Source: an uncultured Acidobacteriota bacterium (GTDB lineage Bacteria > Acidobacteriota > Vicinamibacteria > Vicinamibacterales > CAVVIG01). Taken from it: a DNA stretch of 64,000 nt. The position numbers were made by a program, and so were the translations under genes. Below are positions 798-45,827 of this stretch, piece after piece (the stretch's first letter is position 1; every line of letters starts with the position of its first letter). A model generated the notes under the pieces. It ran no database searches. It was not told where the DNA came from and saw nothing but the letters and a program-made list of their open reading frames with translations. The stretch lies in assembly GCA_902825985.1 (NCBI GenBank), contig CADEDC010000002.1, forward strand, positions 87,226 through 151,225. The letters run 5' to 3'.

Positions 798-2159
798 TCA
801 CACGATCTGGAGCAGGGTGTCGAGTGTGTCGCCGATCACCGAGAAGAACCGGGCATTGGCTTCGTAGGCCCGTTGATACTTGATCATCGCCGCCGCTTCC
901 TCGTCGAGCGAGACGCCCGACACCGAATCGCGCAGACGGGACACCGACTCGACGATGTTCTCGCGGCTGGTCCGATCGGCCTGCGCCGAGGCCGAGTCGT
1001 TGCCGACCCGGTAGACGATCTGGCTCCACGACTCGGCGAACGTCATGGTCCCGCCGCTGGCGACCCGATTGGTCCTGAGCTGCGCCAGACTCTCGGCCAC
1101 CTGGTTGTCGCCGATGGTTCCGGTCTGCGAGGCGGCGACGAGCGACGGGTCGCCGGCGACGCCGGCGTCCACCGCCATCGCCGACGCGGCACCGGCCGCG
1201 GCACCAATCGGGGCGAAGAAGTTGTGCCCGGTCGTGCCGTCGAGGGCGAAGCCGGCGGCGTGACGCGTGTTCACCTGCTGCGCGACGTCGTAGGCCAGCT
1301 GATCGAGCTGCGTCTGGTAGCCGGGGATCAAGGTGTCGCGGACGTCCAGGTAGCCGGCAATCGTGCCGCTGCCCAGTTCGGCGGTGATGTCGGTGGAACC
1401 GTTGATGTTGACGCTGGCCAGACCGGTGCCGGGATCGTTGGTCACCGTCAACGCATACTGATTCTCGCCGACGACGATCGCGCGGCCGGCGCCGAGCGAG
1501 ACGTTGGCCGTGCCGTCCGCGTTGCGCAGGACCGAGATGCCGGTGATCTCGGCGAGGCTGTCGAGCTCCTGGCCGAGTTGGTCCTGCAGGGCCTCGGCAT
1601 CGGCGCCGTTGGCGCGGGCGATCGAGGCGTTCAGCGACGCGATGTTGCGGGCCTTGTCGTTGATGGCGCCCACCGTGCCGCGGACCTCGACGTCCGCTTC
1701 ACGGCGTGCGTCGCTCAGCCGGGTGGCGGTTTCGTTGAACGATCGGGCGAGCAGACGCCCCTGCTGGACGACGTTGTCGCGAGCGATCGGCGACGTCGGG
1801 TTCTGCGCCAGCGCGCGCCAGGCGTCGAAATACGAGGTGAGGTTCGCGTCGAGCGACTGGCCGCTGGCGCCGAGCGCCGTCTCGACCACCGACAGCGACT
1901 CGGCCGCCGCGCGCTCCTGGCCGGCGAGCGGCAGTTCGCGCCGCAGCCGGGCCTCGATGAGTGCGTCGCGTTGCGCCGGCGCGCCGACGATGCGCACGCC
2001 ACCGCCGTGCCCCGGCGGGACTTCGGCCAGCTGCACGATCCGGCGGGCATAGCCGGGAGTGTTGAGGTTGGCCATGTTCTGGCCGACCATCTCGAGGCCG
2101 TAGCTCTGCGCCTGCATGGCGCGGGCCGCCATCGAGAGGCTTTCGGTCAGACCCGACAT
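798..2159 (-). CDS. flgK: Flagellar hook-associated protein FlgK (HAP1)
   Basis: 453 residues, starting MSGLTESLSMAARAMQAQ at the ATG 2157-2159; a longer frame upstream is not used because it lies inside flgN. Residues about 20-42 carry the basal-body/rod signature (VGQNMANLNTPGYARRIV). The C-terminus ends with a YQRAYEANARFF helix, the Flg_bbr_C motif. FlgK forms the first junction ring between hook and filament. It is shorter than the enterobacterial protein (about 550), so the variable middle domain is reduced. The start overlaps the end of flgN by 13 bases, which fits chaperone and substrate being translated together. Confidence 0.95.
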   Translation of the reverse strand: MSGLTESLSMAARAMQAQSYGLEMVGQNMANLNTPGYARRIVQLAEVPPGHGGGVRIVGAPAQRDALIEARLRRELPLAGQERAAAESLSVVETALGASGQSLDANLTSYFDAWRALAQNPTSPIARDNVVQQGRLLARSFNETATRLSDARREADVEVRGTVGAINDKARNIASLNASIARANGADAEALQDQLGQELDSLAEITGISVLRNADGTANVSLGAGRAIVVGENQYALTVTNDPGTGLASVNINGSTDITAELGSGTIAGYLDVRDTLIPGYQTQLDQLAYDVAQQVNTRHAAGFALDGTTGHNFFAPIGAAAGAASAMAVDAGVAGDPSLVAASQTGTIGDNQVAESLAQLRTNRVASGGTMTFAESWSQIVYRVGNDSASAQADRTSRENIVESVSRLRDSVSGVSLDEEAAAMIKYQRAYEANARFFSVIGDTLDTLLQIV

Positions 2160-2512
2160 GAGACCCTCGATTCGTTGCGGGGTTGCAGGGCATCGGCCGC
2201 CAGGCTGCCCTGGCGTGTGTAATCGGCGTCGGAGCCGGTGAGAAAGTCCTCGATGACCTTGAGCAGGACGTGATTGGTCCGCCGGCACCCGTTGAGGGTG
2301 GCCCGCGCCCGACGCAGCGCCGTACGCAGTTCCGCCCGCGCCTCATCCGTCCAGCCACGCAACGTGCCGGACGGAATCTGTGCGGCGAGCAGCGCCTCCT
2401 GGGCCGCCAGCAGCTGGCTCAGGTCACCGGACGCGAGCGCCGCCGCCATCCCTTCGAGGGCCTGACGGAGCCGCTCCACGGCCAGCGTCACTTCCTGCGG
2501 CCGCGCCTGCAT
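2147..2512 (-). CDS. flgN: FlgN-like export chaperone
   Basis: 121 residues, all-helical in appearance with a heptad pattern (VERLRQALEGMAAAL, then LRTALRRARATLNGCRRTN). FlgN family proteins are cytoplasmic export chaperones for FlgK and FlgL, and this gene sits directly upstream of flgK with overlapping ends. The conserved FlgN middle segment (AQEALLAAQIPSG, followed by a long helix with N-H at the end) is recognisable but the family is weakly conserved. The assignment rests as much on position between flgM and flgK as on sequence. Confidence 0.75.
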   Translation of the reverse strand: MQARPQEVTLAVERLRQALEGMAAALASGDLSQLLAAQEALLAAQIPSGTLRGWTDEARAELRTALRRARATLNGCRRTNHVLLKVIEDFLTGSDADYTRQGSLAADALQPRNESRVSCRV

Positions 2513-2516
2513 GCCG

Positions 2517-2804
2517 TCACTTCTCCAGCGACGACGTGATCAGGGCATCGGCGATCGCCGCCGCGTCATTGCCCACGAGACCGGCGTCGAGCAGCTTCCG
2601 CGCGCGCTCCACGACCTCCGGCCGGACGTCGGACGACTGCGAGGCCTGCTTGACCGCCTCGTTCGCGAGCTGGGCCTCCGCAGACACACGGATCTGATCG
2701 CCCGACTTCCTCGACGCGTCAGCCGCGGCGGCGTCCGCCGCCTTCTTCTGGTCGACGCGATCGAGCGACGGGTCGAAGCTTGGCCGGTTGCTCTCGATTT
2801 TCAT
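2517..2804 (-). CDS. flgM: Anti-sigma-28 factor FlgM
   Basis: 95 residues. The N-terminal half is disordered and polar; the middle reads SGDQIRVSAEAQLANEA, and the C-terminal helices (VRPEVVERARKLLDAG...NDAAAIADALI) form the sigma-binding half, as in the FlgM family. FlgM holds FliA (encoded at 10343-11089) inactive until the hook is complete, then is exported through the flagellum. A clear AGGAG ribosome site lies 8 bases before the ATG at 2802-2804. I see no convincing sigma-28 promoter in the 47-bp gap upstream, so it may be read only from the long operon. Confidence 0.92.
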   Translation of the reverse strand: MKIESNRPSFDPSLDRVDQKKAADAAAADASRKSGDQIRVSAEAQLANEAVKQASQSSDVRPEVVERARKLLDAGLVGNDAAAIADALITSSLEK

Positions 2805-2851: not shown

Positions 2852-3802
2852 CTAATCCTGCCCCCGGTTCGAGGGAGACCGATATGCCTCCCAATCGGCA
2901 CTGCCCGCCAACCCCTTTAACAGCCCGGCCGGATCGACCGATCGGCCATGTCGCAGGACTTCGACGTGCAGATGCGGGCCGGTCGATCGCCCGCTGCTGC
3001 CGGCACGGGCAATCGCTTGCCCGCCTCGCACCTCGTCACCGGCCTGCACGTCGCTGCCGGACAGATGCGCGTAGCGCGTCTGCAGTCCGTCACCATGGTC
3101 GACGATCACGGTGAGGCCATAGCTGCCCTGGACGCCCGAAAAGCTGACACGCCCTGACGCCACGCTGGACACCTCCTGGCCGTATGCCATGCGGACGTCG
3201 ACCCCGGCATGGAACTTCGACCGGCCGGTGAACGGGTCCGGCCGCCAGCCATACGGCGACGTCACGGTGCCGCCGACCGCTTCGGCGCCCCGCGTGACGG
3301 CGGGCCTCGCGTCGCGCGCCATCTCGACGACCGACGGCGTGCCCATGGCTGCCTGCCCGGTGACACCGCTGCGCGCCACCGTCACGGCCGCCGACGCCGC
3401 CTGGCCTGGGACTGCGCCACCGTGCGCATGCCGTCCCTCTATCGGCCCGGGAGCGCCCGCGGGTGAATCGGCCGCCGCCGACTGCTGCCGCTCGAAGGCA
3501 CGCTCCAGCACCGCAGCAATACCGAGGCCACCGGAGCGGCTGAGGGCGCGTCCGAGCTCGCTGCCCGCCATGTCGGTCATGCTGCCGAGACCGCCGCCCT
3601 CGGCCTCGTCGTCGACCAACGATCGGCGCCAGGCGCCGAGCATCTCGTTCATCAGCATCGCCTCGAACTCCTGCGCGAGCTGTTTGAGCTTGCCCCGCTC
3701 CGCCTCGCGGTCGCGCGCACTGATGGCGCCGGCGGCGTCGCTGCGGGCCGCCGAGTCCGGGATGGCCGGCGGGACGCCGCCGGTGGCGAAGGTGTCGGCC
3801 AT
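2852..3802 (-). CDS. flgJ: FlgJ-type rod-binding protein fused to an M23 metallopeptidase
   Basis: 316 residues in three parts. Residues about 37-110 are the FlgJ rod-binding domain (LKQLAQEFEAMLMNEMLGAWR, then a GLGSMTDM segment). Residues 111-185 are an Ala/Gly/Pro-rich linker. Residues about 186-305 are a LytM/M23 peptidase with both zinc motifs: HxxxD at 198-202 (HAGVD) and HLH at 277-279. In enterobacteria FlgJ carries a C-terminal GH73 muramidase instead; here an endopeptidase fold takes that place, so the enzyme should open the wall for the rod by cutting peptide cross-links. No signal peptide is visible, in line with FlgJ export through the flagellar apparatus. It lies between flgI and flgM. 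Confidence 0.9.
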   Translation of the reverse strand: MADTFATGGVPPAIPDSAARSDAAGAISARDREAERGKLKQLAQEFEAMLMNEMLGAWRRSLVDDEAEGGGLGSMTDMAGSELGRALSRSGGLGIAAVLERAFERQQSAAADSPAGAPGPIEGRHAHGGAVPGQAASAAVTVARSGVTGQAAMGTPSVVEMARDARPAVTRGAEAVGGTVTSPYGWRPDPFTGRSKFHAGVDVRMAYGQEVSSVASGRVSFSGVQGSYGLTVIVDHGDGLQTRYAHLSGSDVQAGDEVRGGQAIARAGSSGRSTGPHLHVEVLRHGRSVDPAGLLKGLAGSADWEAYRSPSNRGQD

Positions 3803-3804
3803 GG

Positions 3805-4932
3805 CTACATCACCACGATCTTCGCCTTCAGGGCACCGGCCGCCGACAGCGCCTGCATGATGGCGATGATGTCGCGCGGCGTGGCGCCAAGGGCGTTCAG
3901 CGCCCGCACGACCGAATCGAGTGTCGTTCCCTGCTCGAGTTCGACGAGCTGTTGCGTCCCTTCTTCGACCTCGACCTGTTCGTTGGCGATGACCTTCGTC
4001 TCGCCGGTCCGCGACAGCGGCGGCGGCTGCGACACGTCGAGCCGCGTCGAGATCCGGACCGAGAGGTTGCCGTGCGCGACCGCCGCCGGGCCGATGCGCA
4101 CCTGCCCGCCGACGACGACGGTACCGGTCCGTTCGTTGATCACGACGCGCGCCTCGGCATCGGTCTCGATCGGCAGCACGTCGACTCGCGCCATGAACTC
4201 GGCAACCGAGGCGCGATACTCGCCGGGCACGCGCAGCGTGACGTTGCCCGGATCGGTCGCCTTCGCGGTGTCGTGTCCGAACGTCTGATTGATGACCTGG
4301 GCGACGCGCGACGCCGTCACGAAGTCGGGTTCCCGCAACGACAGGGTGACGGCGTCGGCGGGCCCGATCTGCGTCCCCGCTCCGATCTGCACCAGCGCGC
4401 CGGAGGGGACGCGGCCAACGGTCAGATGGTTCACCTGGACGCTGTTGCCGCCGGTGCCGCCGCCGAAGCCGCCCAGCGTCAGCGAGCCCTGGGCGAGGGC
4501 GTAGATCTCACCGTTGCCGCCGCGCAGCGGCGTCGCCAGCAGCGTGCCGCCCTGCAGGCTCTTGGCATCGCCGATCGACGAGGCGGTGACGTCGATGCGC
4601 GTCCCCGGCCGGGCGTAGGCTGGCAGTTCGGCGGTGACGAGCACGGCCGCGACATTCTCGATCTTGATCTGATCGGCCGGCACCGCGACGCCGAACCGCT
4701 GCAGCATGTTCGCCAGGGTCTGGGCGGAGAAGATCGTCTGCCGCTTGTCGCCCGTCTTGTTCAGCCCGATGACGAGGCCGTAGCCGAGCAGTGGCGTCGA
4801 CGACGTGCCGGCCATGGACGCCACGTCCTTGAGTCGGGTCTCGGCGCCGGCGCCGGCCGGCCAGCCGCCCAGCGCAAGGGCGGCGACGAACGCGACGATC
4901 CACGAACCGGAATGCTCCACACGCGAATGCAT
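3805..4932 (-). CDS. flgI: Flagellar P-ring protein FlgI
   Basis: 375 residues with a Sec signal peptide of about 30 residues ending near PAGAGAETRLKDV. The conserved FlgI opening (RLKDVASMAG...LLGYGLVIGLNKTGD) and the C-terminal block (LVELEQGTTLDSVVRALNALG) are both present. Length matches the family (about 365-380). FlgI polymerises in the periplasm around the rod at the peptidoglycan layer, with FlgA as its assembly chaperone. Presence of flgI and flgH implies an outer membrane. Confidence 0.97.
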   Translation of the reverse strand: MHSRVEHSGSWIVAFVAALALGGWPAGAGAETRLKDVASMAGTSSTPLLGYGLVIGLNKTGDKRQTIFSAQTLANMLQRFGVAVPADQIKIENVAAVLVTAELPAYARPGTRIDVTASSIGDAKSLQGGTLLATPLRGGNGEIYALAQGSLTLGGFGGGTGGNSVQVNHLTVGRVPSGALVQIGAGTQIGPADAVTLSLREPDFVTASRVAQVINQTFGHDTAKATDPGNVTLRVPGEYRASVAEFMARVDVLPIETDAEARVVINERTGTVVVGGQVRIGPAAVAHGNLSVRISTRLDVSQPPPLSRTGETKVIANEQVEVEEGTQQLVELEQGTTLDSVVRALNALGATPRDIIAIMQALSAAGALKAKIVVM

Positions 4933-4939
4933 GATGACC

Positions 4940-5653
4940 TCAGAAAATCTTGTTCAGGATGCGGATGACCCAGCCGGGCTGCAGGCTGTCTTTCATGAGA
5001 CCGCGACCGAAGTAGCGAATCCGCAGCTGACCGAGCGCACTCGACTCGACGACGTTGCCCGGGGCGATATCGGCGACACGGGCGATGCCGGTGAGGACGA
5101 CGATCTGGCGATCGCCGTTGATGTCGATCTCGCGAACGCCCTCGATGACCAGGTCGCCATTCGGCAGCACCTCGGCCACCCGCGCCGTCAGCGTCGCCGT
5201 CAGCGCGCCGGCCCGGGTCGTCGATCCGGCGCCCTTGAAATCGCTGTTGCTGTTCACCCCCGCGAGGTTCGTCGGGTCGATGAATCCCGGCAGCTTGCCT
5301 TCGAGACCGAAGAAGCCGGGTAGTGCCGCCGAGGCGCCGCTGTCCTTGGACAGGTTCGAATCCGCGGTGCCGGTGCCGACGATGCTCTCGATGACCCGCA
5401 CCGTGACGATGTCGTTGACGTTGCGCGCCCGCAGGTCCTGCATCAGTCCGTTGAACCAGAGGTTGGCATCGGCGGGACGAGGCGGCGGCGTGCTGCGGGC
5501 GACGGCGAGATAGCGGGCGAACAGTTCGTCGTAGCTGTCCGTCGCCTTGACGGTCTGCTGCTTCTTGTCGGCGGCGTCGGCCGGCGGCGGGCCGCCGACC
5601 ACCGCCATCGTCGTCGCGAGAACTACGGCTGCGGCGCGTCGCATCTGCTGCAT
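4940..5653 (-). CDS. flgH: Flagellar L-ring protein FlgH, without lipobox
   Basis: 237 residues. The start is the ATG at 5651-5653 (MQQMRR); its first base is shared with the flgA TGA (TGATG junction), and a second ATG lies three codons on. Conserved FlgH features are present: NLWFNGLMQDLRARNVNDIVTV in the N-terminal part and the GDLVIEG and GxVRxxDI-type blocks near the C-terminus. FlgH forms the outer-membrane bushing around the rod. The signal peptide (VVLATTMAVVGGPPPADA) contains no cysteine and the whole protein has none, so it cannot be a lipoprotein, unlike the enterobacterial FlgH. Confidence 0.95.
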   Translation of the reverse strand: MQQMRRAAAVVLATTMAVVGGPPPADAADKKQQTVKATDSYDELFARYLAVARSTPPPRPADANLWFNGLMQDLRARNVNDIVTVRVIESIVGTGTADSNLSKDSGASAALPGFFGLEGKLPGFIDPTNLAGVNSNSDFKGAGSTTRAGALTATLTARVAEVLPNGDLVIEGVREIDINGDRQIVVLTGIARVADIAPGNVVESSALGQLRIRYFGRGLMKDSLQPGWVIRILNKIF

Positions 5654-6387
5654 CACGGGATCACCTCGACCACGCCCGGACCGACGACCCGGGCCCGCAG
5701 TTCCCTGCGGCTGTCCTTGTTGACGACGCGAATGATGGCGCCCGGCGTGCCGTCCTGCACGGCGACGAGGGCAGCGACGACGGTCAGGCCGCCAACCCGC
5801 GCGGTGGCGCGCACGCGTTGTCCGCTCTTGACCGCCGGACGCACGGTCACGGCCGAGTGGGCAACGATCTCCCCCGGCGCCAGGTTGACCAGGGTTCGCG
5901 TCCCGGCCACCTCGTCCAGGCGCGGCAGTCGGCGCAGCGGCACGTCGACGAGCCGATCGCGCGACGCTTCGATATCGCCATCGCCCAGCTGGCGGCCGCG
6001 CGGTACCAGCGCCCGCACGCGGACGTGTTCCACGTCGACCGTGATCAGCGCCGAGGCCGAGCCCACGACACGGGCGGCGTCGCCCCGACCGTCGGCGCCG
6101 AGGAGACGGAAGTGCACGCGGCCGCCCAGGCGGGCGTTGGGGGCGGGCACCGCCTGCAGGAACGGCGACGCCGGCTCGCCGGTGACCTGCATCTGCTCGA
6201 CGCTCACCTCGGCTTCGTCGCCCATCCGGGTGCGGACCGCCTCGGTGACGGCGGCGCGCACCCGTGCGTCGAGTGCCGCGACCGGTGTCGCCGCCGGCCC
6301 GCCGGGACCGGCAAACAGCGGCGACGACACGCACAGCGTGCTGACTGCCGCGGCGACGGCCATCCGTGAACGCGTGAAGACACCCAT
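5653..6387 (-). CDS. flgA: P-ring assembly chaperone FlgA
   Basis: 244 residues with a signal peptide (about 1-27). The C-terminal half holds an SAF-like domain: a VPRGRQLGDGDIE entry, then LAPGEIVAHSAVTVRPAVKSGQRVRATARVGGL, ending with RVVNKDSRRELRARVVGPGVVEV. This is the usual FlgA C-terminus. FlgA is a periplasmic chaperone for FlgI polymerisation. It sits between flgG and flgH and its stop overlaps the flgH start by one base. Confidence 0.93.
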   Translation of the reverse strand: MGVFTRSRMAVAAAVSTLCVSSPLFAGPGGPAATPVAALDARVRAAVTEAVRTRMGDEAEVSVEQMQVTGEPASPFLQAVPAPNARLGGRVHFRLLGADGRGDAARVVGSASALITVDVEHVRVRALVPRGRQLGDGDIEASRDRLVDVPLRRLPRLDEVAGTRTLVNLAPGEIVAHSAVTVRPAVKSGQRVRATARVGGLTVVAALVAVQDGTPGAIIRVVNKDSRRELRARVVGPGVVEVIP

Positions 6388-7984: not shown

Positions 7985-8551
7985 TCAGGCTCCGAGGTCC
8001 AGCACGTTGCCGCGCCGACGATGGGAGCTCTTGCGCCGCGCGGCGTCGTGAACCACCGCGGCGGCGGCTGGCGAGGTGGCGGGCGGCCCGGCTTTGGCGA
8101 CGGCTACCACCGGCTTCGGCGTCGTGGTCGCGGCCGGCCGGCGGACCGCGGCCGCGGCGCGAGCCGGCGTCCTGGCGACCGGCTTGGCCGGCGCTGCCGC
8201 CTCGTCGATCAGGCCGAGGTGCAGGCGGACCTCGCTCTCGGAGACCTCCTCATCCGACGCGATGTCCTGGATCGAGCGGCCGGTCTTCACGGCCGAGACG
8301 ATTCGCCTGGCAGTGGCGACGCGGCCGGCCGCCGGCGCGCGGCGTTTGCCGCCGCGCTCCATCTCGGCCGCCACCGTCGCGAAGCCGCTCTGCGTCGTGT
8401 CGGTCAGCAGCGCCACCGCCTCACCGAGGTGCGTGAGCCGCGCCTCGAGGCGCGTCAGATCGAGATCGCGCCGGCGTTTCACGAGAACCGCGAGACCGAC
8501 GCACTGCAGCACGGCCACTCCACACACGGCATAGATCAAATAGGTCGTCAC
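7985..8551 (-). CDS. Single-pass membrane protein of the DUF2802/DUF6115 type in flagellar operon
   Basis: 188 residues from a GTG start at 8549-8551 that overlaps the upstream stop in a GTGA junction; a longer frame exists but runs into the fliN-like gene. One N-terminal membrane segment (residues about 4-22, YLIYAVCGVAVLQCVGLAVL) is followed by a basic stretch, a helix with LTHLGEAVALLTDT, and a helix-turn-helix-like block (ARRIVSAVKTGRSIQDIASDEEVSESEVRLHLGL). The last 60 residues are Ala/Pro/Thr rich. Small membrane proteins with this C-terminal block recur in flagellar operons of many phyla (DUF2802, DUF6115); their role is not established. Confidence 0.75.
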   Translation of the reverse strand: MTTYLIYAVCGVAVLQCVGLAVLVKRRRDLDLTRLEARLTHLGEAVALLTDTTQSGFATVAAEMERGGKRRAPAAGRVATARRIVSAVKTGRSIQDIASDEEVSESEVRLHLGLIDEAAAPAKPVARTPARAAAAVRRPAATTTPKPVVAVAKAGPPATSPAAAAVVHDAARRKSSHRRRGNVLDLGA

Positions 8552-9342
8552 AGCTGTCCCTCCATGGCGCGGATGCGCTCCATCGGGCTGGTCAAATCGG
8601 TGATCCGGACCCCGTAGTTGCCGGCGACGATCACGACTTCGGCCTTTGCGATCGGCCGGCCGCACACCAGGACCTCGACCGGATCGTCCGGCGACCGGCC
8701 CATGTCGACGATCGAGCCCGGGCCGATCGACGACAGTGCCCGGATGCTCATCACGGTGCTGCCGAAGCGCACGCTGAGCGGCAGTTCGATGTCGAGGACG
8801 ACCTCGAGATTGCTGGTCGGCACCTCGGTCGTCGGGCCGCCGGCGGCGGCGCGGCGGGCCGGCGGCCGGCTCGCCGACGCGACTGCCGGTGCCTCGCTGC
8901 CCGCCTCCAGCGACGCGGTCGCCGCGGCCTGCAGCGTGTGGTCGCCGAACGTCAGCGCGAACAACGTCGTCTGTTCAGGCGCGACGGCCGTCGACTCGAT
9001 GGCCCCCGGTGACAGGGTGAGGCCGGCAAAGGCCGGCTTGAGGCACAGCGAGCTCAGCGCCTGGTTGGTCAGTTCGGTGAGCAGGTCGCGGGCGGCGCTG
9101 TCGCTGGTGTCGGCATCGGCGCCGAGCACGGTGTGCAGCAGCGCGGTCACGCCCTCGGGATCGAGCGTCAGCCGGGCCGTGCCGCGCAGCGCGCCGGTCG
9201 CGACGAGCGACAGCGTCCAGCCCTGGCCGGCGACCCCGCCGCCCTCCGCCACCGTGATCGTCGTGCCGCCGATCGCATCGATTGCGGCGGCCAGTTCGCC
9301 GATCAGCGCCGGCAGGAAATCGGGTGCGTTCGCACTCGCCAT
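8548..9342 (-). CDS. FliN/FliY-like C-ring protein with an extra N-terminal CheC/CheX-like domain
   Basis: 264 residues. Residues 177-250 form a SpoA/FliN domain (SNLEVVLDIELPLSVRFG, then GPGSIVDMGRSPDDPVEVLVCGRPI). Residues 1-145 look like a CheC/CheX-type alpha/beta domain (DLLTELTNQALSSL at the position of the family helix), though the strict GE-xx-N phosphatase signature is not kept. This is the FliY-like arrangement; a second, short FliN is encoded at 18198-18515. The protein should sit in the cytoplasmic C-ring with FliM, which is the adjacent gene. Whether the N-domain has any CheY-P phosphatase activity is unclear. Confidence 0.85.
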   Translation of the reverse strand: MASANAPDFLPALIGELAAAIDAIGGTTITVAEGGGVAGQGWTLSLVATGALRGTARLTLDPEGVTALLHTVLGADADTSDSAARDLLTELTNQALSSLCLKPAFAGLTLSPGAIESTAVAPEQTTLFALTFGDHTLQAAATASLEAGSEAPAVASASRPPARRAAAGGPTTEVPTSNLEVVLDIELPLSVRFGSTVMSIRALSSIGPGSIVDMGRSPDDPVEVLVCGRPIAKAEVVIVAGNYGVRITDLTSPMERIRAMEGQL

Positions 9343-10332
9343 CTATCCCTCCACCACGTCACCGAGCGGATTGCAGCGGTGCTCGACGTGCACGCCGATC
9401 TGGCGGCCGACCGCCGTCAACCGGCCCTTGAACTTCTGGGTGTCGCCGACGAAGATGTCGACCGGCGTCTCGATTGGCATGCCGAGCGACAGCACCGCGC
9501 CCGGCGTCAGTTCCAGCAGTTCGCGCGTCGTCAGCCGCGACTCGAGCGACGCCGTGAGGTTCATGCGCACGCGCGCCAGGTTCTCGCGCAACCAGGCCCG
9601 TTCGGCGGCCGTCGGCTCGCGGCGCTGCTGGTGCCACGCCTGCACGAAGTGACCACCGGCCGACTCGACGATGCTGGCCGGGAAGCAGAGATTAATCATC
9701 CCGCGGGCGTCGCCGATTCTGGCATCGAGGACGACCATGATGACGATCTCGTTGGGCGCCGCGACCTGCAGCATCTGCGGGCGGGTCTCCCGGCCGCGGA
9801 TGCCGAACGCGAGGTTCACGATCGGCCGCCATGTCTCGGCCAGCGCCTCGAGCAGCAGTTTCACCAGCGTGTCGATGACGTTCTGTTCGATCTCGGTCAG
9901 CGCCCGCGACAGCGGCGGCGCCGAGCCGGAGCCGCCCAGCATGCGATCGACGAGCGCGAAGGCGACGGCCGGATTGATCTCGAGCGCGCCCAGCTCGTCG
10001 TAGGGCGGAATCGCCAGCGCATAGAACGCCGTCGGGTCGCTCAACGACATCAGGAACTCGGAGTACGAGAACTGTTCGACCGAGACCACGGTCATCTCGG
10101 TCACCGTCCGCAAGTAGGCGGACAGCGACGTCGCGACGTTCCGGGCGAAGCGGTCGTGGAGGAAGTAGAGCGAGTGAATCTGCTCCTTCGACACGCGGTC
10201 CGGACGACGGAAGTTGTAGCGGATGACGTTGCCGAGCGCGCTGGCATCGGTCGTCTGCGTGTCGGCGCTGGCGATGTCGGTCGCCGCCGACAGCAGCGCG
10301 TCGATCTCGTCCTGGCTGAGAATCCGGCTCAT
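9343..10332 (-). CDS. fliM: Flagellar motor switch protein FliM
   Basis: 329 residues. The N-terminus starts MSRILSQDEIDALLSA, the classical FliM motif; the CheY-P binding role is assigned to this tip in the family. The middle domain contains RNVATSLSAYLRT and the GGSG segment (DRMLGGSGSAPPLSR), and the C-terminal SpoA domain contains VDIFVGDTQKFKGRL. Length is as expected. FliM links FliG to FliN in the rotor and sets rotation direction. Confidence 0.97.
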   Translation of the reverse strand: MSRILSQDEIDALLSAATDIASADTQTTDASALGNVIRYNFRRPDRVSKEQIHSLYFLHDRFARNVATSLSAYLRTVTEMTVVSVEQFSYSEFLMSLSDPTAFYALAIPPYDELGALEINPAVAFALVDRMLGGSGSAPPLSRALTEIEQNVIDTLVKLLLEALAETWRPIVNLAFGIRGRETRPQMLQVAAPNEIVIMVVLDARIGDARGMINLCFPASIVESAGGHFVQAWHQQRREPTAAERAWLRENLARVRMNLTASLESRLTTRELLELTPGAVLSLGMPIETPVDIFVGDTQKFKGRLTAVGRQIGVHVEHRCNPLGDVVEG

Positions 10333-17851: not shown

Positions 17852-18201
17852 GGTTGTCCTCCGGCGTCGAGGGACGCCTGCAATTGCGACTGGAACGCCG
17901 CGCCGTCCGGCGGTCCGAGCTCCGCGATGAGCGCGATCTGCTGCTGGGTCATGCCGAGCAGCAGGCGCCGGTTCTCCACCGACACGACGACCAGCGACCG
18001 CCGGTCGCCGAGCGACACCGCCGTCTCCACGGTGATGGTCTGGCGCAGTCGCGACGCCGGCAGACCGCGCCGCAGGTAGTAGGCGAGCAGCGCCAGCAGG
18101 CCGACGACGATGCCGGCGGTCAGCATCGCCCGCCCGCCGATCGGCACCGGGTCGGCCGCGAACGCGATCCCGTCCTGCAGCGCCAATACGAGTCCGATCA
18201 T
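17848..18201 (-). CDS. fliO: Flagellar biosynthesis protein FliO
   Basis: 117 residues. One membrane segment (AMLTAGIVVGLLALLAYYLRR) is followed by a small cytoplasmic domain with the FliO pattern of ITVETAVSLGDRRSLVVVSVENRRLLLGMT. FliO is a scaffold for assembling the FliP ring and is poorly conserved; its position just before fliP supports the call. Confidence 0.9.
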   Translation of the reverse strand: MIGLVLALQDGIAFAADPVPIGGRAMLTAGIVVGLLALLAYYLRRGLPASRLRQTITVETAVSLGDRRSLVVVSVENRRLLLGMTQQQIALIAELGPPDGAAFQSQLQASLDAGGQP

Positions 18202-18515
18202 GAATCGACTTCCACGCCCGCCGGCGGCGACACGCGGTTGATTCGCAGCGCCGTGGTGTCATCGGCGATGGCGACTTCGCCGGTGGCGATGTTCACGCTG
18301 TGGACCCGGACGATGAGATCGCCGCCCGCCGACTGCGCGAGCCGGATGATGCTGTGCGGCTCGAGGCGCAGGCACTCGCGGATCGTGATCGTGCCGGTGC
18401 CGAGGATGAACTCGACGAGGCAGCGGACGTCGAACATCGGCGCCAGGCTGGCCGGCAGCCCCTCGTGCCCGGTCGCCAGGTCAGTACTGGATGACGAAGT
18501 CGCTGAAGAGGACAT
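18198..18515 (-). CDS. fliN: Flagellar motor switch protein FliN
   Basis: 105 residues, essentially one SpoA domain (DVRCLVEFILGTGTITIRECLRLEPHSIIRL, ending TTALRINRVSP). The start ATG 18513-18515 has GAGGTGG just before it even though this lies inside the fliL end (35-base overlap), so I keep it. This is the compact FliN; a larger FliN/FliY-like protein is encoded at 8548-9342. FliN forms the base of the C-ring. It overlaps fliO by four bases. Confidence 0.9.
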   Translation of the reverse strand: MSSSATSSSSTDLATGHEGLPASLAPMFDVRCLVEFILGTGTITIRECLRLEPHSIIRLAQSAGGDLIVRVHSVNIATGEVAIADDTTALRINRVSPPAGVEVDS

Positions 18516-43595: not shown

Positions 43596-45188
43596 TCATT
43601 CGAGCATCGGGCTCGCCCGGAGTGCGCGATCGAGCCGTGTGTCGTGCCCATAGATGTCGTCGGCGAAATGCAGCGTGCCGTCGGGCCACACTGCCGCCGT
43701 CGTGTAGAACAGCAGCACCTGGATTGGCGTGTCGAGCCGGACAGGTTGCGGCCGGCCCGCCGCCATCGCGGCGGCGATTCGCTCGCGCGGCCATCCCGTC
43801 TCCTGCGACAGGACCCAGACCGCGAGCCCGACCGGATCCTGGACCCGGACGCATCCATGGCTGAAATCCCGCCGGCTGCGGTCGAAGAGCGCGGGTGCTG
43901 GCGTGCCGTGCATGTAGACCTGCTCGTCGTTCGGAAACACGAACTTGACCAGCCCCAGCGCGTTGCCGGTGCCGGGGCGCTGCCGCAGCCGCAGCTGTCC
44001 GCGCCGCAACCGCTCGAGATTCGCGGGCGACGCCTCGACAACCGGGTCGTCGTCGCGCTCGCCGGCCACCAGTTCCATGTTCTGGCGCTGCAGGTAGCCG
44101 GCATCGCGCTGCACGAGCGGCAGCACCTCGGCTCGCAGGATCGAGCGCGGAACGTTCCAGTACGGCCGGAAGATCACCTCGCGCATCTCTTTCGCCATCA
44201 CCGGCGTTGCGGTGCTCAACGCCTTGCCCACGATGACGCGGGTCGAGAACGACGGCGCCGCATCGACGCCGGGCCGCCAGCCCCAGAGGTGGAACATCGG
44301 GATGTTGAGCACGAGAACGCGCGGGCGATTCAGGTGTGGCAGCCAGCGCAGGCGCTCCAGCGCGAGTTCGATCTGCCGGGTGCGCCACGACACCGGGACG
44401 TTCAGCGCCGCAATGGTGGCATTCCCCAGGACACCATCGGCCTCCAGGCCATGCCGCTCCTGGAAACGGCGGATGGCGTCGGCCACGGTCGCATCGTAGA
44501 CCGTCCCGGCCCGAGAGGTGTCGCGGTCGGCCGTCCCCGGGCTCCCTTCTTCGATGAGGTCGCCGAGGCGGGCGAGCCGGCGCGCGAGGGGGGTGACGTC
44601 GGCGTAGAACTCGCCGGGATGCACCGACCGCTCGACCGGCGGCAACAGCACGGCGTCGTCTCGCAGTCCACGATAGCGGCGCAACTCCCGACGCAGCGCC
44701 CCGTACTGCGGCGGCGACGGCCGATAGGCCTCCACCAGTGTGGACACCCGGTTCGCCGCCGCCGCCTCGCGGACGAGCGCCGCGAAGTCATGGCCGTCGT
44801 CCGGCACCTCGAGGCGCAGACCGATGTCGCGCGGATCGAGGCGTCCCCGATGCAGGTCGCGGAGGTACGCGGCGACCGCGAGCGTGAGCCCGGCATCCAG
44901 CGCGGCCGCACCACCGTGAGCGCCGTGTGCCGCCGCCGTGGCGTCGGCCAGAAGGGTCAGCGCATCGGCGGCGTAGTCCTCGGGCCGCAGCCCCTCCTCG
45001 GCGCTGGAGCGCAACAACTGCAGCGCCTCGAGGGCCGCCGCGCTCGGCTGCCCCGCGACCGTCCAGAGCCGGTGCTCGACGACCGGTGGCGGCTGGTTCG
45101 CGAACGGCGGATACTGGTCGACGCAGGCGACGGCACACAGGGCACCACCGGCGACCACGCACCATGAGGAGAGCTGTCCAACTCGCAT
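43596..45188 (-). CDS. YcbB-like L,D-transpeptidase, probable lipoprotein
   Basis: 530 residues from ATG 45186-45188 (MRVGQLSSWCVV). The leader ends in a lipobox-like LCAVAC, giving a lipidated Cys. A peptidoglycan-binding-like helix bundle follows (AIRRFQERHGLEADGVLGNATIAALN). The catalytic YkuD domain holds the active site SHGCVRV at 443-449 with Cys446, preceded by HGT at the conserved position. The YcbB-specific RPYWNVPRSI segment is present. It makes 3-3 cross-links in peptidoglycan; the MepK-like hydrolase gene ends 35 bases away, tail to tail. Confidence 0.92.
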   Translation of the reverse strand: MRVGQLSSWCVVAGGALCAVACVDQYPPFANQPPPVVEHRLWTVAGQPSAAALEALQLLRSSAEEGLRPEDYAADALTLLADATAAAHGAHGGAAALDAGLTLAVAAYLRDLHRGRLDPRDIGLRLEVPDDGHDFAALVREAAAANRVSTLVEAYRPSPPQYGALRRELRRYRGLRDDAVLLPPVERSVHPGEFYADVTPLARRLARLGDLIEEGSPGTADRDTSRAGTVYDATVADAIRRFQERHGLEADGVLGNATIAALNVPVSWRTRQIELALERLRWLPHLNRPRVLVLNIPMFHLWGWRPGVDAAPSFSTRVIVGKALSTATPVMAKEMREVIFRPYWNVPRSILRAEVLPLVQRDAGYLQRQNMELVAGERDDDPVVEASPANLERLRRGQLRLRQRPGTGNALGLVKFVFPNDEQVYMHGTPAPALFDRSRRDFSHGCVRVQDPVGLAVWVLSQETGWPRERIAAAMAAGRPQPVRLDTPIQVLLFYTTAAVWPDGTLHFADDIYGHDTRLDRALRASPMLE

Positions 45189-45827
45189 TGCGCGCGCGCC
45201 GGTCCGGCACGTCCTCCGCGTGGGCATGTTGCAAGAGACGGCCCGCCGCCGATCGCCACGATCGGCAGCGCCGACGGCATCCCGGCCGCCTGGTGCCGTG
45301 AACGAGCCGGGATCTCGTCAGCGTTGACGGTGGTGCGGCACGAGCGGGCCGGGCCGCGGTCAGCCGATCCGGCGGCCCGCGCGGCGAAGACGCCGGTCGG
45401 GCACTGGCGGCGGCGGGCACGGCGCTTGCCGATCCCAGGCTGCATCTGGTCTGGCCGCCGGCAAGCCGCCGGCGGCGCGGGAGGAGCCACCATGCCGCAC
45501 CCACCGGTGAAACAGGCCGCCGCCACCTGCCACCAGGCGACGCCGACCATCTTCATGCCGACGCCGATGTGGCTTCGAGCCGAGGAGGCGCCGTGGACCT
45601 GCGTTCGCACGGCACCGCCCCGCCTGCTCCATTCGACCGATGCCTGCGAGACCTGTCCGAAGTGGCAGCCACATCGCGCCGGAGGCAACAGACAGCGGAG
45701 CGCCTGACCGTGAGGGGCCGCTGAACCGGTTGTGTCGGTGCGCCCGATGCCGGCGTGGATGCGGCGGCGTCACTCCTGATAGGATGCGCAGGGCATTCGT
45801 ACCCTAACCCATTCAGGAGGCGCAGAC
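45189..45827. other. Intergenic region of 639 bp without a firm gene
   Basis: Between the divergent transpeptidase and NTF2-like genes. Frames on both strands are Arg/Pro-rich shadows without family features. The only frame with a plausible ribosome site is the 43-codon one at 45593-45724, listed separately. No repeats, RNA genes or strong hairpins are seen; part of the stretch nearest 45827 must carry the promoter of the NTF2-like gene. Confidence 0.5.
45593..45724 (+). CDS. Possible small protein, 43 residues
   Basis: GTG start preceded by GAGGAGG at close distance. The product would be a basic helical peptide (LRDLSEVAATSRRRQQTAERL). No family is recognised and the codon pattern is no better than chance for this GC content. 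It is listed only because the ribosome site is good and the gap is otherwise empty. Confidence 0.25.
   Translation: MDLRSHGTAPPAPFDRCLRDLSEVAATSRRRQQTAERLTVRGR

Follow-up and report, generated by a model that had tools for sequence, protein, structure and literature searches.

In beta- and gammaproteobacteria (Salmonella, E. coli; family TIGR02541), the dual-domain FlgJ joins a rod-binding N-terminal half to a wall enzyme in its C-terminal half, is encoded in a flg operon and does both jobs in one protein, as described in passages of PMC8517470. The protein reported here is like it in each of these respects, but the C-terminal half of the known FlgJ is a GH73 glycosidase, whereas here it has an unrelated zinc peptidase fold and is predicted to cut peptides. 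Single-domain FlgJ, found in Borrelia, where it is paired with BB0259, and at 79 of the 113 flgI loci that we read in the phylum of our sequence, has a homologous rod-binding half and the same place behind flgI; unlike the fusion, it has no wall enzyme in the same protein. M23B endopeptidases of the MepM, ShyA and NMB0315 types share the fold and the HxxxD / H / HxH active site, but have other N-terminal parts and no rod cap.

Passages of six PubMed Central papers (PMC8517470, PMC6403190, PMC10954123, PMC9662197, PMC3482391, PMC11442865) contain no description of a FlgJ–M23 protein, and in those of PMC9662197, a review of M23 architectures, the string 'flagell' is absent. More broadly, we found no description of a FlgJ with an M23 domain among the listings and passages that the PubMed Central literature returned. 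A 2006 study (Nambu), reportedly devoted to domain plasticity in FlgJ, may already mention M23. Pfam lists architectures that combine Rod-binding with Peptidase_M23. Desulfovibrio DVU0517 is annotated as an M23/M37 peptidase and placed behind flgI; no paper naming it was found in the PubMed Central literature.

The window, that is, the whole stretch of 64,000 nucleotides of an uncultured Acidobacteriota bacterium that was analysed, contains an extensive flagellar cluster, which shares the strand of the fusion gene (Table 1). In addition to the genes in the table, Pfam named FliM, FliN-type proteins, a sigma-70 factor, FlhA, FlhB, FliR, FliP, FliL, FliK, FlgE, FlgD, a FliI-type ATPase, FliG, FliF, FliE and two rod proteins; FlgF, FlgG, FlgH and FlgN are presumably present as well, to judge by gene order. 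No filament or stator family appeared among the part of the window's open reading frames that was scanned with Pfam. Two FliN-type proteins with a FliMN_C domain (8548-9342 and 18198-18515, both on the minus strand) are present besides FliM at 9343-10332. The fusion gene was called as a single open reading frame; the plus-strand frame across 2852-3802 has three stops and is not open.

Table 1. Features of the fusion gene and of its nearest flagellar neighbours (positions in the window)
Feature	Position	Strand	Basis or remark
flgJ-M23 fusion gene	2852..3802	-	316 aa; directly behind flgI
FlgJ-type rod-binding domain, residues 29-112, three helices	3467..3718	-	Single-domain FlgJ profile; AlphaFold2 helices; Pfam and TIGR matches below cut-off
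Linker, residues 113-176, low confidence	3275..3466	-	AlphaFold2, alignment; length varies among relatives
M23/LytM peptidase domain, residues 177-298	2909..3274	-	Pfam E 2.2e-30; StM23 9gy1 Z 21.1
HxxxD zinc motif, H198 to D202	3197..3211	-	30/30 fusion proteins of the window's phylum
Active-site H246	3065..3067	-	30/30 in the window's phylum; 50/51 with other groups
HLH motif, H277 to H279	2966..2974	-	30/30 fusion proteins of the window's phylum
flgI, P-ring protein, directly upstream of fusion gene	3805..4932	-	Pfam FlgI E 5.8e-130
Probable flgH, L-ring protein	4940..5602	-	Sequence and gene order; upstream of flgI in relatives
flgA, P-ring chaperone	5653..6387	-	Pfam ChapFlgA E 6.5e-21
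flgM-like anti-sigma factor, next downstream of fusion gene	2517..2804	-	Pfam FlgM E 4.4e-05, 24.0 bits, cut-off 25
flgK, hook-associated protein	798..2288	-	Pfam FlgK_D1 E 2.3e-55

The two halves of the protein were identified separately. A rod-domain profile built solely from 59 single-domain FlgJs of the phylum sample matches the N-terminal half at E 6.1e-15 (nominal search size 1000), and it matches all 30 fusion proteins of the phylum. The reverse profile, built from the fusions, matches 59 of 59 single-domain FlgJs. Residues 30-112 were taken for the rod profile, together with the single-domain FlgJs, since in short fusions the first 170 residues already include part of M23. The general families recognize this half weakly: Pfam Rod-binding (PF10135) gives E 0.01 and 16.8 bits, below its cut-off of 25.1, and TIGR02541 gives E 2.9e-06 and 27.4 bits over residues 30-144, below its cut-off of 193. 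Across the phylum's fusions, Pfam finds M23 in 30/30 and Rod-binding in 26/30 at E<=0.01, the window's own protein lying outside the 26. The C-terminal half yields only M23 in a Pfam scan, without GH73, and the match spans residues 196-291 (E 2.2e-30).

An AlphaFold2 model computed from a 30-row alignment (mean pLDDT 74, pTM 0.47) has helices at residues 29-63, 73-89 and 95-112 and, from residue 180 onward, the M23 beta domain; between them, residues 122-172 form a linker with pLDDT under 50. Among solved structures, StM23 (9gy1) matches best, with Z 21.1 and an rmsd of 2.1 over 128 residues. Foldseek and VIA-align both rank M23-type folds at the top, and unrelated folds appear further down the VIA list. 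H246, within YAHLSG, is the third histidine of the active site. The gene is thus confirmed to encode a FlgJ rod-binding domain, a disordered linker and an M23/LytM domain with all five active-site residues. A sequence-only reading of this DNA had proposed that the rod-binding half of FlgJ is joined to a LytM/M23 domain, with zinc motifs at residues 198-202 and 277-279; the joining holds, and the motifs lie exactly at those positions, on the minus strand, which that reading leaves unmentioned.

We then consider how far the fusion extends within the phylum. The sample comprised 396 genomes, 113 of which have FlgI, at 116 places; three flgI places truncated where their contigs end (in G258 and G306, and one of the two in G172) were left out, and 113 loci were read. 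A FlgJ–M23 fusion lies directly behind flgI at 30 of these, and a FlgJ without M23 is present at 79 (59 recognized in a first pass and 20 by profile), with no M23 profile match in either the 59 or the 20. The remaining four (L089, L096, L100, L125) end too near FlgI to be classified. The remark that FlgJ lacks a wall enzyme in some phyla is right, and it is true even inside this phylum. In the window's order, the sample has 13 genomes with flgI, counting the window's own, and the fusion is present in all of them. Behind the single-domain FlgJ of G061 (L127) lies an M23-like motif, which was dropped, having no M23 profile match.

We consider it probable, at roughly 70%, that the protein is this organism's FlgJ and represents a second dual-domain kind, a rod cap with a tethered M23 zinc endopeptidase that cuts peptide cross-links of the wall. 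Such a protein would leave the cell by way of the flagellar type III apparatus; the N-terminus has no strongly hydrophobic stretch (best 15-residue mean 0.55), which fits an export that uses no signal peptide. Once outside, the N-terminal helical domain would sit at the rod tip and cap the growing rod, while the M23 domain on its flexible tether would cut peptide cross-links where the tip meets the sacculus. The bond may be that from D-Ala to diaminopimelate, by analogy with MepM/ShyA-type enzymes. The cut, which rod assembly would need, would let construction go on to the distal rod, the P ring and the L ring. Glycan strands are what the known dual-domain FlgJ cuts to open the wall, and a conserved rod cap with a peptidase would be a natural test of which wall bonds must break to let a rod through. 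The window also encodes an L,D-transpeptidase with Scaffold, YkuD and peptidoglycan-binding domains (43599-45227, minus strand); if this enzyme makes 3-3 cross-links, this would bear on what an M23 endopeptidase can cut here.

The sequence-only reading went further, holding that a muramidase had been replaced by M23 and that the rod passes the wall by peptide cleavage instead of glycan cleavage. The window's genome (5.85 Mb, 174 contigs, 98.1% complete, 3.7% contamination) contains one rod-binding match at E<=1, a weak one that is the fusion gene itself, and no match to GH73 (PF01832). A separate GH73 FlgJ was thus not matched in this genome, which is a weak test, GH73 being rare with or without the fusion: it occurs in 2 of 50 fusion genomes (own genome 0/1; further fusion genomes 1/44, in G054 at E 9.9e-9; other fusion genomes 1/5, in G399), against 1 of 25 single-domain-FlgJ genomes (G394), the 25 having been picked from the surveyed genomes. 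None of these three GH73 loci has a rod-domain match or a tested flg gene nearby. Because of this rarity, genomes lack GH73 by default, and 'replaced' does not describe what happened. Where the phylum does not have the fusion it has a FlgJ without M23 (79/113), so that M23 appears as an independent addition, not a swap. More likely, a FlgJ that had no enzyme gained M23, paralleling the GH73 domain of beta- and gammaproteobacteria.

Nor is 'instead of glycan cleavage' established, because five SLT-domain genes lie elsewhere in the genome. These could make the hole in trans: the rod-binding half might recruit a separate lytic transglycosylase as the main hole-maker, as has been proposed for single-domain FlgJ, with M23 widening or trimming the hole or helping to seat the P-ring. 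Such a division of labour has a precedent in Borrelia, whose single-domain FlgJ works with the SLT enzyme BB0259, according to passages of PMC8517470, and most FlgJs of the phylum sample are without M23. However, within about 1.5 kb of the five SLT loci there is neither a rod-binding domain nor any of the nine flg genes tested, and the fused peptidase has been retained with an intact active site. We therefore regard a transglycosylase as the main hole-maker as unlikely.

The state of the active site also bears on whether the M23 domain is an enzyme at all. The EnvC LytM domain (4bh5, Z 20.3) is among the closest folds to the M23 domain of the model, and one might suppose that this domain is a LytM module with no enzymatic function of its own which, like EnvC, serves to recruit or activate a different wall enzyme, for example an amidase. 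EnvC-type activators have lost their active-site residues. Unlike these, the fusions of the window's phylum keep all five (H198, D202, H246, H277, H279) in 30/30, which makes an activator role highly improbable; the loss of zinc ligands for which the relatives were to be watched is thus not seen in any of the 30. With other groups included, four of the residues are invariant in 51/51 fused M23 domains and H246 in 50/51. As a control, 101 other M23 domains, most of them fetched by a motif that fixes part of the active site, keep the residues in 99 to 101 of 101. Since these keep them equally, the conservation points to an active M23 and to nothing special to the fusion. The fused M23 domain of L245 (G551), on a long branch, has Asn at the H246 position and is the only one of the set with a changed active-site residue.

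The fusion is not confined to one phylum. A scan of named genomes with one M23 motif gave at least 80 loci, most of which are ordinary M23 genes; among the matches listed, five (L148, L149, L154, L164, L206) have flg neighbours or a rod-half FlgJ match. Fusions adjoining flg genes were found in Desulfocarbo indianensis, a Desulfarculus MAG, an Aminicenantes MAG and two 'Deltaproteobacteria bacterium' MAGs, in one of which (L148) flgK is the only flg gene seen and the contig starts nearby. In Desulfocarbo's phylum, the fusion lies beside flgI in at least 17 of 247 genomes. A full-length profile match is present in 16 of the 247, with flgI adjacent in 16/16. The score gap below these (206.9 vs 181.4 bits) is not a clean border: G522, under the gap at 179.3 bits, also has a fusion beside flgI, with a long linker. 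The count of 17 is a lower bound that covers the next 14 loci below the gap. FlgI itself occurs in 141 of the 247 genomes; its best 30 loci have a rod-domain frame in 23 and none nearby in 7, and no M23 frame was found at these 30. A tblastn search against plasmids gave no single place covering 80% of the query among the matches listed (20 of 3817 records).

The fusion, sought in the phylum and beyond, is therefore a recurrent gene, and the same gene in the same place in other genomes excludes a chance joining. An assembly or gene-calling artefact, conceivable in a 174-contig assembly with 3.7% contamination, is refuted by the recurrence of the same continuous frame in 30 genomes of the phylum, including the single-contig G325, G125 and G059, and outside it. 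A likely function can also be suggested for proteins named merely 'M23 family' that sit behind flgI.

We also examined the origin of the fusion with two trees. The M23 tree, in which many forks are unresolved, had 152 rows (51 fused and 101 other domains) and 120 columns, with fusion labels assigned by flg neighbourhood and three long-branched M23 genes of the window's genome (L004, L006, L007) left out. On this tree, a branch with SH-aLRT 97 separates 50 of the 51 fused domains from the 101 others; the one outside is Aminicenantes locus L154, and the fusion label needs 2 changes. When all 51 were constrained as one clade, the likelihood was above that of the unconstrained tree (p-AU 0.78). 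These alignments thus do not reject that the fused M23 domains arose once; such an origin is compatible with the tree, though unproven. The FlgI tree had 113 rows, 48 of them labelled as fusion, and seven of its 'not' rows are loci without a FlgJ found beside FlgI; fusion or not needs at least 11 changes on it. As a result, the M23 part would have been lost, or the fused gene moved, several times. Together with the 79 of 113 loci that are without it, these changes indicate that the M23 domain is dispensable in some lineages.

A wider reading is that FlgJ–M23 forms a second class of dual-domain FlgJ, of ancient date and evolved once, which the window's phylum shares with Desulfarculaceae-type bacteria and some deltaproteobacterial MAGs. 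Here the rod would get through the wall by the cutting of peptide cross-links, without a dedicated glycan-cutting enzyme. We put this forward tentatively and at somewhat less than even odds. If true, a hole is what rod assembly needs, whatever the chemistry that makes it, and the rod cap acquired a wall enzyme on at least two occasions. The domain plan of FlgJ is in any case wider than GH73, a partner SLT enzyme, or nothing.

Several minor observations concern individual genomes. The window's genome has eight M23 domains, the fusion included, so that seven other M23 genes lie elsewhere; one M23 gene of this genome (L001) groups with L223 of a Vicinamibacterales MAG in the M23 tree, in keeping with the assignment to Acidobacteriota. 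L095 (G250) and L068 (G319) have a single-domain FlgJ, and relatives of both genomes have the M23 fusion: G319 groups with the fusion genomes G185 and G059 in the FlgI tree, and G250 has the same genus code as four fusion genomes. These two loci are probable secondary losses of the peptidase. Two genomes have two flgI loci each, followed by different single-domain FlgJs (L113 and L115 in G249, L136 and L137 in G359), which suggests that both have two flagellar systems.
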